DNA of 64,000 nt from Gamsiella multidivaricata. Lineage: Eukaryota; Mortierellomycota; Mortierellomycetes; Mortierellales; Mortierellaceae. Of this stretch, positions 32,842-55,910 are shown in pieces; position 1 is the first letter of the stretch, and every line of letters starts with the position of its first letter. The stretch is taken from NCBI RefSeq assembly GCF_025024155.1, contig NW_026251742.1, positions 306,266 through 370,265 on the forward strand. Reading direction: 5' to 3'. The position numbers and the translations under genes were made by a program. Below the pieces are notes generated by a model. It ran no database searches. It worked only from the letters and a program-made list of their open reading frames with translations, and was not told the DNA's origin.

Positions 32842-33306
32842 TATAAGGTTCTATGTGGAAAGGAAGAGCCATATAAAGAGAGAAACGTGTAGTGAGTAAG
32901 GTCGGATGTATACCTGGGATAGGAAGTAAAATCCGGGTCGCCGAAGATCCTATCCATGCGAGGCGGCGCGTGAATTTAGGCACTCTGGGTGTAGATCTGG
33001 ACGCCATCCTGCGTACTGGAGAAACACGTACAAAAGGACAAGAGTCGTCGATAGATTGGAAAGGGCCGTGCTGCTTGCTGCTGCCTGTTGCTACTGTGCG
33101 CGCGATCCTTGTGCCTTGGAGGATTGAATCGCAGGGAGGGCGGGTTGAAATGGATGAGGCAGATGTGATCCCCTCTCCCTGATCAGGTTCGGAGCAACAC
33201 ACCGATTTATGTGCTTGCGAATGCGATAAATTCGCGTTCTAAACGACAATAGACCGATAAGGACGATTAGCTGAAGGGAAATAAGGCATCATTTATTGAG
33301 CAGGAC
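32842..33306. other. Upstream region of NDUFA8; nothing else recognised
   Basis: 465 bp with overlapping ORFs on both strands (32892-33182 plus, 32756-33202 minus). Neither shows a domain, and both use unremarkable start contexts, so I treat them as chance. The region should contain the NDUFA8 promoter and the 3' end of the uncertain gene that follows. Confidence 0.4.
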
Positions 33307-33770
33307 TCAAAGTTGATGCACCAAATCCTTGGAGGAGGCCACTGCAGCCTGCAGGTCCTCCAAGCTGCCTGTCTTGGACTTTTTATTCATCAGCTCGACA
33401 ATCATGCGCCCATTGTTACAGAGCTCTTCCTCTGCTCCTTCCGCCGGTGCCTTTCTTCCTCCTCCCTCCTGGCCCTCTCGTATTCGAGTTGGGTGTAAAC
33501 TTTTGGGTTAAGCACTGCTAGTTGGTCTCTGAGTGGGTCTTGCTCGAAGATGCCCGTGTCATTATTGTTGCGCATGTTATCATTGTTAATGTTGTCGTTG
33601 GGACCATCGTTGAAGTCGACTGTCCGGTCCTCGATGATATCGGCCGATACAGACGGGCGAAGAAAGCGACTGAGCCGAAGGTCATGAAACACACGCTCAG
33701 CAAGAAAAATGTGCTTGCACAGAAGGGGTTCACGCTTGATGAAGTCGAGGCGCGAACATGAGAGGAGTTG
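33307..33770 (-). CDS. Possible small protein gene, structure unresolved
   Basis: Several frames look protein-like but could not be joined with confidence. The best 3' exon ends at 33307 and encodes EEELCNNGRMIVELMN followed by SLEDLQAAVASSKDLVHQL. Upstream on the same strand, one frame reads KHIFLAERVFHDLRLSRFLR then FEQDPLRDQLAVLNPKVYTQ. Another frame is hydrophobic (FCASTFFLLSVCFMTFGSVA) and could be a membrane helix. The plus strand at 33600-33761 also has a plausible stretch (KHTLSKKNVLAQKGFTLDEV). I recognise no family. This may be a two-exon gene, a broken gene, or sequence disrupted by the neighbouring mobile element. Confidence 0.3.
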
Positions 33771-33826
33771 CCCAGATCTGACGATGACAACAAGGATATA
33801 ATACGTGTCTGGAGTGTCGGGGTCAA

Positions 33827-35552
33827 ATGACTGAATGGAGATCTACACAAGAAGGGGAAGTTAAAGTATACCCCACTGTAAGTAACATTTGGCTAAGGCA
33901 GGCGAACTTGGAACGGTGCTCGAACGCACAATGGTTGGTGAAGCCCGAAGATATCCGTGCGCATATTAACACCCTTCGCCGTGACGGTTTCGATTCCCGA
34001 AATTGCCAGGAAAAGGGCTATTTCTTGCGCGGCTCGATCAAGACGGATGGCTATAGCTTGCAGCTTCTCGCATACAAGGTCCGCGAGCTGAAATCAGTCA
34101 AGTTCAAGCGATACAAGGCCGATGTTTTGGCAGATCGTCTGCTCACCACCGCCGCCGGCATGAATGACTATCTGACCGAGGTGCGCAATGTCTTCAAGTC
34201 CGCGGCCGATGTCGAGCGCCTCCTTGGCTGCACCCCTGACGACACTGACAAGGTGTCATACTTGGGTCTCGACCTAGGCCAAGCGTTCGTTATCGGAGCG
34301 TACGGCCATATGCCAAAGGACAAGAGCCCCAAGATTGGCAAGCGACGCCGCCACCGGCGACAGAAGAAGCGCGGCAGCCGGGGTCGTCGCAAAAGAGGTA
34401 GCGGCAAGGGCAGGAAGAAGAGCGTATGTCGAACCCGAGGCGAGCGGCACATTAACTTAGCTGCCAAGCAGAAAGCTGTTGCGCAACCCACTCACAGCCA
34501 CAGGACTTGGATGAATCGGCAGAAGGGCGCCGACTTGAAGATACACTCCAGCCCGTCGACCACCAACACCGAGTCAATAGCACCATCAACGGTCAACCAG
34601 CCCTCAACCAGCAGCACGGAGGCAGCAACAACCGAGTCTCTCTCTATCTGCACGATCGAGTCGTCACTCCCACCCCTCCGCGGTTCCGCCGCCGACTTCG
34701 TTGCTCACGTGCAGGGACGCAAAATGCACAAGGTCCATCTGGACAAGTTTTACAACGGCCGCCGATTCAGGTTCAAGAAGTTCAAGCGGATGTCGCAGCA
34801 GGCTAGGCAGCGCGAGTTCGAACGCCTGGCGGACTCGCTCCTGCGGATGATCGGCGACTCCATTGGCGAGAAGAAGAAGGAGGAGGACAAGGTTGTGATT
34901 GGGATCGGCATGGGGCGATTCACCTCCAGTTCGGGATTATCATCCTTGCATGGGACGTTCGAGGCTTACTTCATCCAGAAGGTAACTATTTGTCTGTTTA
35001 TTGTGGGTTGTTTGCAGTGCTCCAATCTAGCTACTGTTGCTAACTGACATATCCCTCGCGCTCTCTGTTATTCCATCGCGTAGGCGCGGTCGCTCGGATA
35101 TCTCGTTGTTGGCGTGCACGAGTATTACACCTCAAAGAAGTGCCCAAAGTGCGAGCAGTTTGTCGGCCAGACCGAGAGCATTCGCCGCCTCCACTGCTCC
35201 CATTGCAAAAAGTATATGCACCGCGACGTGATGGCAGGACACAATATCATCAACATTCTGCGCGGCCATGTCGAGCAGCAGCAGCGACCACTCTATCTGC
35301 ATCCGGTCGACAAGGACGGCCACTACCCCTGGCTGGAGCTACTCAAGGACGCCACAGATTCGTTGCAGCAAGTAAGCAGCCAATGGTTGTCGTGCTAGTC
35401 GTGCAGGTCGTGCTGGTTGCAAGCGCCAGGCAGAGGGGGATGGCGATGCCAAGGAGACCGGTGGCAAGTGCACCAAAACAACCATGGCCAAGCAAAAGGC
35501 AGCGACCACCAAGAACAAGGCGGCAGCGGCCAAGCAATTGGCAGGTCGATAG
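33827..35552 (+). CDS. Fanzor: eukaryotic TnpB-type RNA-guided RuvC nuclease
   Basis: Exons 33827-34981, 35084-35371 and 35430-35552 give 521 residues; both introns (102 and 58 nt) keep phase. The C-terminal half is a RuvC fold interrupted by a zinc finger: SYLGLDLGQAFVIGA with Asp149, VGVHEYYTSKKCPKC with Glu398 just before the finger, Cys405/408/423/426 (CPKC and CSHC), and MHRDVMAGHN with Asp433. Catalytic Glu beside the zinc finger is characteristic of Fanzor rather than bacterial TnpB. An Arg/Lys-rich stretch at about 170-195 looks like a nuclear localisation signal, and the last exon is Lys/Ala-rich. Fanzors cut DNA guided by an RNA from the 3' end of their own locus; here hairpins begin at the stop codon. 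A related copy (54.2-55.9 kb) carries an extra N-terminal region of at least 66 residues that is not found here, so the true start or intactness is uncertain. Confidence 0.85.
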
Positions 35553-35667
35553 CTAGACTAGCTTTTTTTTTTTCACTTCGAGGTGCTCGCAAGCACCCTT
35601 GTCTACCTTCGGGTGGATTTAGATAGCTGCGCAGGCCGATGATTTCACCTTTTCGGTGGCGTCATCG
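35551..35667 (+). ncRNA. Candidate Fanzor guide-RNA scaffold (ωRNA/fRNA): tandem hairpins at the element right end
   Basis: Beginning at the Fanzor stop codon: inverted repeat AGCTAG-A-CTAGCT (35551-35563), an 11-nt T run, hairpin 1 GGTGCT/AGCACC (35582-35597, loop CGCA), hairpin 2 TCTACC/GGTGGA (35602-35617, loop TTCG), and hairpin 3 with a 13-bp stem (35637-35649 with 35655-35667; one mismatch, two G.U). Position and stacked hairpins are what TnpB/Fanzor loci are known to use. In those, the guide is read from sequence just past the element's right end, here near 35668. The motif around CTAGCTTTTT and the core TTCGGTGRCGT recur at the broken second copy. The role is inferred; the RNA ends are unknown. 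Confidence 0.5.
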
Positions 35668-35713
35668 TAGTCCGTTGCGCGGATGTCGACTGATAAACTT
35701 TATTTTTATACAA

Positions 35714-37069
35714 CTAAAAGTCCAGCCATTTGGAGTAGTAGCTGCAGCCTGCTGCATTGACGGGCCCATTCTCGGTGCAGAACTCGGCAACAGGACAGAC
35801 GCCGCAGGGACAGTCCTGCCACGCCGACTCAGCCTTCTTGTCCCTGACAGCCTTGTACACCCAGTCGGACTCCGTGTCCATATCCTCGTCATCCCAGTCA
35901 TCGTCCACTTGTGCGATAAACCGTTCGACCTTGCCGTCGTACACCAGCACATCCAGCAGCATCGTGATGTCTGCTACGCTCAGGTCAACCTGGCTGATCC
36001 TCTTTTCCATGATATACTTACGCACTGCTGCAGCTGAAGGATAGGCATTATGAGACGACGTGAAAATGCAGCTGGCATCCCTAGGGAATGACTACAAAAA
36101 AAACAGGGAGTCCGCAGTTGTCGGTATCTGTTAGCAGCAATTTCTCTTACATCAGGTACCTGGAAGTATAACATATGCACGGCACGCTCGCCAGCTGAGT
36201 TCCCACCTTCATGAGTATATACTTGTAACATTGGTTCGTCAGTTGCTCCACGAAGTCGACATCCAGCTCTTGATCAGTGAACCAAGGTCCTCCTGTAACC
36301 TCGACTGAAGGCGTCAGCTCCATTAGCATGTACAGCTTCCTTGTCGGGTGTTTGACTGACTTGATGGCCTTAACCAGTGCCTTTTGTTCAAGGGCTCTCA
36401 GACATCTCTTAATAACGGCCTCATGAAGATTCGTTTTTGATTTCAAGTGCTTCGTCCAGATACCCTCGTTTCCGGATGATCGAATCGTGTTGTACACCAC
36501 TTGCTCTTCTCCATGCAACGCTCCAGCTCTATACATGAAAAATGTTGCAGCGTTAGATCAATGACCGATCCTCTCAAAAGTATATTTTATAGCACATAAA
36601 CAATTCAGCGACTCGCTTCATCATCGCCTTCTAAGCATACTTTCCCACGTCCTCCTTCTTTAGTGCCTTGTAGATCAGTTCGCCTCTGACTTGAAAAACC
36701 TCAATGTAGCCCTGCAATTCAATATCAATATACATAATATTAGCATAATAAACCGAGAACCAATTGAAAATCTTTAGAATGTGCGGAGCAAAGTGCCTAC
36801 TTTTGTCAGCAAAGCATTCATAGCCAGGGCTGTGTCCTTTGGATCACATTGTGCATGAAGCGTCAAAAAGTCGGTTGTGGTCAACCCCTGTTATAAGTCA
36901 ACAGATAACATACAATGAAAACTTTCTTTAGCATACAGAAAAGCGCGGGAATGCAACAGAATGCAGCATCGAATGCCATGGAGCATTTTGGCGGCAGGCG
37001 ACCTACGTTGGCACCGGCTTTGGAGCACTCTTCATAAAAGAGATCTTCCAGTGATTTAGCTTCTGCCAT
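35714..37069 (-). CDS. RPC34: RNA polymerase III subunit RPC34 (RPC6/POLR3F)
   Basis: Exons 37069-37007, 36887-36801, 36711-36641, 36528-36207 and 36091-35714 give 306 residues, the usual length. Two winged-helix domains cover the first half, with NEGIWTKHLKSKTNLHEAVI and ALVKAIKSVKHPTRKLYML, then EVTGGPWFTDQELD. The C-terminus has the cysteine set (CPCGVCPVAEFC, then GCSYY) that binds an iron-sulphur cluster in human POLR3F. With RPC82 and RPC31 it forms the Pol III subcomplex that contacts TFIIIB and opens the promoter. Donor GTGGGA of intron 4 is unusual. The stop codon is only about 50 bp from the candidate Fanzor RNA, so the mobile element sits against this gene's 3' UTR. Confidence 0.95.
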
Positions 37070-54188: not shown

Positions 54189-55910
54189 CGTCACCGAAGA
54201 CGATCTTCCCGCGAGGATGTGCCACTAAACTAAAAAGCTAGACTAACTACTATTTGGCAAACTCGCTTACGGCGGGCATCTTGTATGGACGCTGTTCACT
54301 TGCGTCCACCGCCAACTCGCCCTTGCCCTTGCTCCACCGCGCTACTGCTGCCGCTGCTGCCGGCCTCTGCGTGCGATCTTGCATTCTGCATCCAAGGGTA
54401 GCGCCCATTTTTATCCACCGGTTGAAGATAGAGAGAGCCTTATTGATTGACCAAATGGCTACGAATCGCATTGGCAATGTTGTGCCTCGCCATGATATCG
54501 CAATGCATGTAAGGTTTGCAAGTCGAGCAGTACAGCCTGTGGATCTCCACCTCCCTAGCAAACTGCTCGCAGGTTGGACACTTCTTGGACGTGTAACATT
54601 CGTTCACTCCAATCACGATGTATCCAAGCGACCTGGCCTATATGAGCATAAAAAACCATCAATAATATCAGCGTGCAATAAGGAAAGCCTAGTCTTTGCT
54701 GAGAACTTACCCAGGCCGACTCCGATAACAATCTTGTTGGTTCCATTCCTTTTTCTGCCGATGTTTTCTCCAATTGCCCTGAGAAGACTCTCTGTAATGA
54801 GTCCGAATTCGGTATCTCGCGCTCTTCTTGCGTCCCACCTGTGCTTCTTGAAGTGATTGTTGCCGCTTTAGAACTCATGTAGTCGCTCTTTCACTTTCTA
54901 CAGCTCTACGGCATGGTTCGTGAAGCTGGCACCCTGACCGCGCAACGGTGGAAGCCTTGTCTCTACGCAGCAAATGGATTCGATTCCATCGCTTAGCACG
55001 ATATTCTTCTGCTCCTCCATCCATCTCCGATGCTTGAATGCAGGCTGGTAGACAGCCTTTTGCTTGACTGCGAGATTGTGAAAAGCAACAGGGACCTGAG
55101 GCTGAGAGGTGTCTCCGGAAAGGCTGGCCATATCCACATCATCGCATTTTTCTCCAGTCACTGTCGTCGCACTGCCGGGGTCATGGTTTCTGGGCAGCAG
55201 CACGCTGGCACCCACGACACACGCTTGGTCTAGATCGATACTCCTTGATCTGATCGGGCGCACAACCTTAAAGGTCGATGACATCCTGCCTGCTCTTCAC
55301 AATGTTTCGGATCGTAGTCAAGAAATAATCTATCCTACTAAGTGTGGAGGTCAATCAATAAGGTAGGATATTCTCTGTATTTGACCGAATATAGTTCCTT
55401 CATCTTGAAAGCTGGCAGCTGCAGATGAAACCCGTCTGTATGAATGGAGCCTCGAAGGACATAGCCGCGTTCGGTGTAATTCCTTGGATCAGAGTTGGCC
55501 TGCCGAATGGATTGAATGTACTCTCGCATCGTCGCCAAGTCTATCATAGAAGTTGAGTCCTTAAAACTCCTGGACCCTTTGCGTGGTCCTGCCCTGCCGA
55601 CGTTCGAGAGTAGCTTTGAAATGATGGTGCCGGCAGGCTTTGACTGAAGCCGCAAGATTACATCCGACTGGGACAAAGGCGTGTTCGTGCTTGGGAAATC
55701 CTCCCGTATCAATTCTCGAAGATATGTCTGCAGAATTATGTTCTGCCAGAACAAAATGCAGAGTTCTCTCTCGAAAAAAGACATGAAAGACTTTTCTGGT
55801 CCCGTAAATGGAGCCGTCTTGCGGTAGCTCTGACTAGAGTGGTTCAAGAACATGAAATTCTCAACCGCCTGAAGGCTCAGTTCAACTTCGGTACGAGTTC
55901 CTTTTGCTAC
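54189..55910 (-). pseudogene. Broken second Fanzor copy, including right-end sequence
   Basis: Segments match the 33.8-kb Fanzor in order: TERGYVLRGSIHTDGFHLQL, SIDLDQACVVGAS (RuvC-I), ETRLPPLRG, KIVIGVGLGKFS, GVNECYTSKKCPTCEQF (Glu plus first zinc-finger pair), and MHCDIMARHNIANA (RuvC-III Asp). It is disrupted: an in-frame TAA in the stretch before RuvC-I (VIDL-stop-GCAPDQ), a frame change between that stretch and SIDLDQ, a 1-nt shift plus TAG before the zinc finger, and TAA at 54440-54442. The first intron of the intact copy is absent at the equivalent place. The N-terminal region (ELSLQAVENFMFLNHSS) is longer than in the other copy. Downstream, the CTAGCTTTTT and TTCGGTGACGT motifs (54189-54250) match the intact copy's right end. 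It sits upstream of the giant coiled-coil gene. Confidence 0.8.

Follow-up and report, generated by a model that had tools for sequence, protein, structure and literature searches.

The stretch of DNA considered here (64,000 nucleotides of the Gamsiella multidivaricata genome, contig NW_026251742.1, positions 306,266 to 370,265; hereafter "the window") contains at 33827-35667 what a preliminary description took for an intact Fanzor nuclease gene, set as a stand-alone RNA-guided nuclease locus and followed by a structured RNA. Neither intactness nor independence survived closer analysis. The locus arose from a transposon by deletion and does not represent a stand-alone nuclease gene among host genes: the whole element copy occupies 33261-35687 on the plus strand (2,427 bp), and is an internally deleted relative of the elements C159 (10,285 bp), C93 (7,551 bp), and C145 (4,828 bp) of the same genome. 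Its gene keeps the NUC lobe alone (RuvC and zinc finger), the REC lobe and the XPG domain being gone. As annotations, profiles, and predicted structures show, full-length relatives fuse a putative XPG/FEN1-type nuclease domain to a Fanzor, that is, to a predicted RNA-guided DNA cutter. Ghost or partial Fanzor loci and Fanzor1 genes borne by MuDr elements are already known; the new part is the pairing of XPG with Fanzor, for which no paper was found in the open-licence literature. The window element probably comes, by internal deletion, from a likely Mutator-like transposon with XPG-Fanzor relatives; its own enzyme is most likely dead, and its right-end RNA would likely guide proteins made elsewhere.

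That the window protein belongs to the Fanzor/TnpB family was upheld, together with the residues first pointed out. DPG at RuvC-I is near-exclusive to Fanzors. Here the motif reads DLG instead of the usual DPG, and the 17 close relatives having a RuvC-I are divided between DLG (11), DPG (5), and DHG (1), so the motif varies within the family. The TNB zinc-finger domain PF07282 scores 47.4 bits (cut-off 26.3), the D149, E398, and D433 acids are indeed those of RuvC, and the zinc finger is made of C405PKC and C423SHC. E398 stands six residues ahead of this finger, at the position of E_alt, the RuvC glutamate which precedes the zinc finger by six residues in Fanzors (PMC10711439). The basic tract mentioned earlier is located at residues ~172-198 of the window open reading frame (ORF). 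GT-AG splicing was confirmed, but instead of several introns there is just one, spliceosomal in type and 102 bp long (34982-35083, plus strand), and the protein of a relative is continuous across the same point. It separates exon 1 (33827-34981, plus), where Fanzor homology runs from ~33935 and includes RuvC-I with D149, from exon 2 (35084-35398, plus), which carries E398, the CPKC/CSHC zinc finger, and D433 (PF07282).

The damage is found at both ends of the gene. Residues 37-484 align to residues 815-1257 of P0001, a relative of 1,312 amino acids (aa), with 84% identity, while residues 1-36 have no counterpart in that protein and the start codon lies in unrelated DNA. On another relative, P0011, homology starts at residue 426, where the segment matching the REC lobe of solved Fanzors ends (six of the seven best rows cover residues 79-450, the remaining one 96-776). 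At the deletion junction (33935-33945) the left flank of the window gene meets the core with a short overlap. In C159, C93, and C145 these two parts are separated by kilobases; compared with C93 and C145, the overlap begins at 33929. Further downstream, the alignment with C159, C145, and C151 reveals a single inserted base near 35377-35382 (the C93 segment began later), and the frame therefore ends early, with a stop at 35399. The former C-terminal coding sequence (35399-35552, plus) is out of frame, and closes with the TAG (35550-35552) at which the C159 frame stops. Neither the REC lobe nor an intact reading frame is kept. Because homology starts after the REC lobe and the frame is shifted, the copy is to be regarded as a Fanzor fragment and not as a working Fanzor. 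This shows that a Fanzor recognized only by its RuvC residues can be a NUC-lobe fragment.

What such a gene looks like when complete is seen in the Mortierellaceae, where single annotated proteins of ~1,170-1,330 aa begin with an XPG/FEN1-family domain and continue with the Fanzor. Annotations from several species join the two (P0001, P0002, P0003, P0009, and P0012), the genes of P0001 (Linnemannia exigua) and P0003 (Podila verticillata) being open; the relatives P0018-P0028 are annotated as shorter (447-668 aa), some of them marked partial. The XPG_I family (PF00867) is matched by C159 and P0016 at 25.0 and 26.7 bits (cut-off 24.9), and scores under the cut-off in P0001, P0002, and P0012. A profile search of the N-terminal domain against the PDB reaches a best E of 8e-10, within the XPG/Rad2/FEN1 family, and its E.D, DxD, and NDY motifs align with those of RAD2 and FEN1, whose acids are the catalytic residues of these enzymes. 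Using the predicted structure of a relative, in which the predicted local distance difference test (pLDDT) is mostly 70-93 over residues 1-300, Foldseek finds a match to EXO1 (E 1.5e-8). The domain thus resembles the XPG/Rad2/FEN1/EXO1 nucleases in profile, catalytic acids, and fold; the solved proteins that it matches are repair and replication enzymes, not known as RNA-guided nucleases. As to the second half, the Fanzor fold of the REC lobe is present in full-length relatives. The match of this half in the PDB profile search is weak (LaTranC, E 0.07), and Foldseek alone, with a second model, returned no Fanzor under E 0.001, the best being SpuFz at 4.2e-3. Gene models of C146 and C108 contain intron-bridged frames running from XPG towards RuvC-I; made with our own splice finder, these models are imperfect and are used just to show such joins. 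A long open frame on C32 was rejected, being nothing but a run of N.

The same architecture recurs across the source genome (37.5 Mb, 180 contigs), which was the search space for all copies. Counted as lower bounds, there are at least 109 PF07282 matches, 88 XPG pieces, and 21 transposase pieces. A same-strand PF07282 match follows within 6 kb downstream of 54 of the 88 XPG pieces, at 2.5-3.4 kb in 46 of these cases, and ten have one upstream or on the opposite strand, ~0.8 correct placements being expected by chance. Conversely, an XPG piece is found upstream of 52 of the 109 PF07282 matches. Transposase pieces lie divergently upstream of the XPG or Fanzor part in 17 cases out of 21, a count made with 17 of the 82 pre-RuvC matches; when all 82 are used, the remaining four pieces still have none. 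One XPG-Fanzor family is present in at least 12 closely similar copies (L019-L029, L031, L033, and L035; mostly 93-99% identical over the shared part), and their right flanks differ, which suggests a recent burst with a different predicted guide for each copy. A more divergent XPG-Fanzor branch (L083 and L084, on C139 and C108) has DPG at RuvC-I and an XPG piece ~30% identical to the query.

The full-length relatives are carried by a eukaryotic DNA transposon, recognizable in this genome by both ends, a duplication, and divergent transposase pieces. The genome search finds the core of the window element nearly complete at three further loci (C159, 98%; C93, 93%; C145, 94%) and partial in C151 (95%), and more distant relatives were also matched. 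In the window, the element is flanked by two copies of a 9-bp target-site duplication, GACCGATAA at 33252-33260 and GACTGATAA at 35688-35696, which are identical at eight of nine positions (chance ~1e-4 for one random pair of 9-mers). Three of the four copies are so flanked, with 9/9 identity in C93 and 8/9 in C159 as in the window, and no 9-bp duplication was found around C145; when lengths of 6-12 were tried on C159 and C93, nine alone fitted. The left terminal inverted repeat (33261-33290, plus) has lost bases, reading GGACGATTAGCT... where C93 and C145 read GGATCGCGTGAATCGGACTACGAYTAGCT. These repeats are imperfect, with a CGGACTACGA core common, by eye, to three copies. At the other side, five right ends (window, C159, C93, C145, and C151) match as far as ...ATGTC and diverge beyond it. 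The element ends at 35687, 26 bp from the stop codon of RPC34 (35714-35716); this right-hand neighbor had been correctly named (PF05158), but placed about 50 bp away. In C159, C93, and the window, the dinucleotide CA precedes the duplication at -5/-4, three cases out of three being too few to claim a target-adjacent motif (TAM).

Upstream of the Fanzor part, on the minus strand, 33402-33842 holds a transposase remnant corresponding to the last part, the SWIM-like zinc finger region, with a matching ORF in C159 and C93. In the C93 piece the SWIM family (PF04434) scores 17.3 bits, under the 19.6 cut-off. The carrier is likely Mutator-like, as suggested by its 9-bp duplication, its inverted repeats, and this sub-threshold finger; we infer the label from these features since the five broken transposase pieces of C93 gave no match to the MULE domain (PF10551) up to E 1, and none of the PF10551 matches of the genome overlaps a transposase piece. 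Fanzor1 genes have been described within MuDr elements from three mucoromycete fungi; these elements had 9-bp duplications and were reported to encode no transposase (Bao and Jurka, PMC3627910). The 10.3-kb C159 copy contains extra DNA inside its transposase half (L039:2842-4353 and upstream), not aligned in C93 or C145, and this DNA holds a DDE_1 transposase (PF03184, 63.3 bits).

The three hairpins reported after the gene were all recovered by folding, with the right limit moved from 35667 to the element end. Hairpins 1 (35582-35597) and 2 (35601-35618) belong to the predicted guide-RNA region, and the terminal hairpin (35622-35687), which carries the conserved core and overlaps the right inverted repeat, stops at the last base of the element and is a predicted fRNA/omega-RNA scaffold (all on the plus strand). 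An additional small hairpin is found at 35551-35563. For 35551-35687 as a whole, folding gives z = -3.7, none of 200 shuffles being as stable. Among 15 right ends, sorted by ourselves into nine families, z is negative in 14 (-0.7 to -4.8) and +1.2 in L001, and only one of 15 control stretches upstream goes under -1.1. At the left end, folding is weak in three copies (-6.6 to -9.3 kcal/mol for 80 nt). Because MAFFT aligned the cores of the families but not their arms, a covariance model was replaced by arm-swapping over 10 right ends, in which the 3' end generally prefers its own 5' arm: the cognate mean is -13.9 kcal/mol, against -9.5 with the 5' arms of other families, and one in 20,000 permutations is as low. 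F2 and F4 do not follow this tendency, and F1 cannot be counted as independent of its C131 relative. At gathering thresholds Rfam finds nothing in the window, nor does it up to E 1 within 35300-35760. From its position, the predicted guide would be the host flank at 35688-35716 (plus), with or without the duplication, reaching as far as the RPC34 stop codon. For other Fanzor1s, the RNA scaffold is predicted to include the inverted repeat and the duplication, and RNAs were seen reaching ~15 nt past the duplication (PMC10711439); the guide may accordingly start at 35697. In several families a GACTAG followed by a T run (35553-35572 in the window) can be seen, by eye, after the Fanzor stop and ahead of the hairpins; it is perhaps the start of the RNA.

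The distribution of the right end in the genome can be followed through its core, CTTCGGTGACGTAGT, which about nine families have in common. With up to two mismatches, this motif occurs at 86 sites in the genome, a count uninformative on its own as the reversed control pattern gives 105. However, 18 of the 86 follow a PF07282 match on the same strand at a distance of 201-533 nt, with one on the wrong side and ~0.13 expected. Restricting the search to 0-1 mismatch leaves 37 sites vs. ~3 expected. No PF07282 match is present within 1 kb on the Fanzor side of 26 of these, and for two of the 26 (C118 and C2) a Fanzor piece lies no more than 5 kb upstream, hence 24 sites with no detected Fanzor domain nearby. 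The surrounding sequence was studied in 20 stretches, 19 of which cover 20 of the 26 sites: several sites of this kind fold like the Fanzor-side hairpins, and among F9-type segments at least four of the 13 aligned have an unrelated 5' arm. Such sites are similar to the ghost loci described in Spizellomyces; RNAs from those loci were functional with the SpuFz1 protein in human cells (PMC10432273). The window copy itself has the features of a ghost locus, with a right end almost the same as in four sister copies standing beside a broken gene. Two further sites deserve mention: L086, where two core motifs of opposite orientation lie ~110 bp apart (C77:17017 and 17128), like a small inverted-repeat element; and L045 (C166:24536), a lone right end resembling that of the window family, with no Fanzor domain nearby and no clear 9-bp duplication found.

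For the window copy, a sequence of events can be proposed. Its right-end RNA would be transcribed and processed at 35687, and full-length proteins from other copies would load this hairpin RNA. The guide, running into 35688-35716, would bring them to the corresponding empty site next to RPC34, which the RuvC site of these full-length members would cut. The XPG-type domain could then trim the break at its 5' ends or flaps, and such trimming would favor repair by copying from the element-bearing chromosome, so that the element is kept or spread. Weighing against this scheme, all the larger copies of the window's subfamily read so far are broken. There remains a real, if smaller, chance that nothing in the copy functions, and that the right-end hairpin of this old fragment is just a transposase binding site making no guide RNA: the hairpin overlaps the right inverted repeat, and both the frame and the left repeat are broken. 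However, the hairpin exists on the Fanzor side only, the left ends fold weakly, the core still follows the Fanzor domain in families whose repeats differ, and it is retained by several copies with no detected Fanzor domain. The opposite view, that of a working stand-alone Fanzor with its own guide RNA, is highly improbable. It can invoke the RuvC acids, the zinc finger, and the identity to P0001 over the kept part, but not explain the absence of the REC lobe and all N-terminal parts, a start codon in unrelated DNA, and a frameshifted C-terminus.

The two other alternatives concern the relatives and their carrier. XPG and Fanzor might be two adjacent genes of the element, misjoined by gene prediction, as the short annotations of P0018-P0028 and our imperfect gene models would allow; this is unlikely given that the fusion is annotated in several species and that intron-bridged frames run from XPG towards RuvC-I in the models of C146 and C108. 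It is somewhat easier to imagine, though still rather doubtful, that the carrier is another inverted-repeat transposon with 9-bp duplications. Its transposase pieces have no Pfam MULE match and do not overlap the PF10551 matches of the genome; against this stand the duplication in three of four copies, the SWIM-like finger, and the MuDr elements published with Fanzor1 and 9-bp duplications from three mucoromycete fungi (PMC3627910). A broken copy of a likely Mutator-like, XPG-Fanzor transposon, which would likely supply RNA to proteins made elsewhere, is retained as the best explanation. A larger claim can be put forward only tentatively: Mortierellaceae may harbor a large transposon-borne class of two-nuclease Fanzors, in which an RNA-guided RuvC cutter with a built-in FEN1/EXO1-type 5' nuclease would both cut the guided site and resect or trim the break, forcing the transposon to be copied, with dozens of ghost loci, the window copy included, giving additional guides in trans.

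Among the closest known systems is SpuFz1 of Spizellomyces punctatus, also fungal and having RuvC and a zinc finger, with a guide-RNA scaffold between the stop codon of the gene and the right end (as predicted in the window), many partial copies, and loci keeping the RNA end without the gene (PMC10432273). That locus measures ~2.1 kb, and no transposase was found between its repeats (PMC10432273), whereas the larger copies here carry transposase pieces and the relatives an additional N-terminal XPG-type domain. The MuDr Fanzor1 elements likewise come from early-diverging fungi and have inverted repeats together with 9-bp duplications, but were reported without MuDR transposase, and "XPG" is absent as a word from the main text (PMC3627910). 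PpFz of Parasitella parasitica (9cf0/9cf1) shows ~10% sequence identity, and its solved chain of 726 residues compares with ~1,170-1,330 aa for the proteins bearing the XPG domain. A family whose single element unites a transposase, a guide-RNA end, and a 5'-nuclease-type domain fused to the Fanzor would allow the idea of cutting the empty site and repairing it by copying to be tested directly in a eukaryote, and bears on the role of Fanzors in their hosts. Homology-directed genome editing could also profit from a natural fusion of cutter and resection enzyme, if this is what the protein is.

Finally, a second Fanzor relative lies in the window at ~54195-55871 on the minus strand, with a zinc-finger match at 54476-54637 and a pre-RuvC match at 55356-55871; a stop is seen by eye in its frame, and the right-end core recurs at 54195 with one mismatch.
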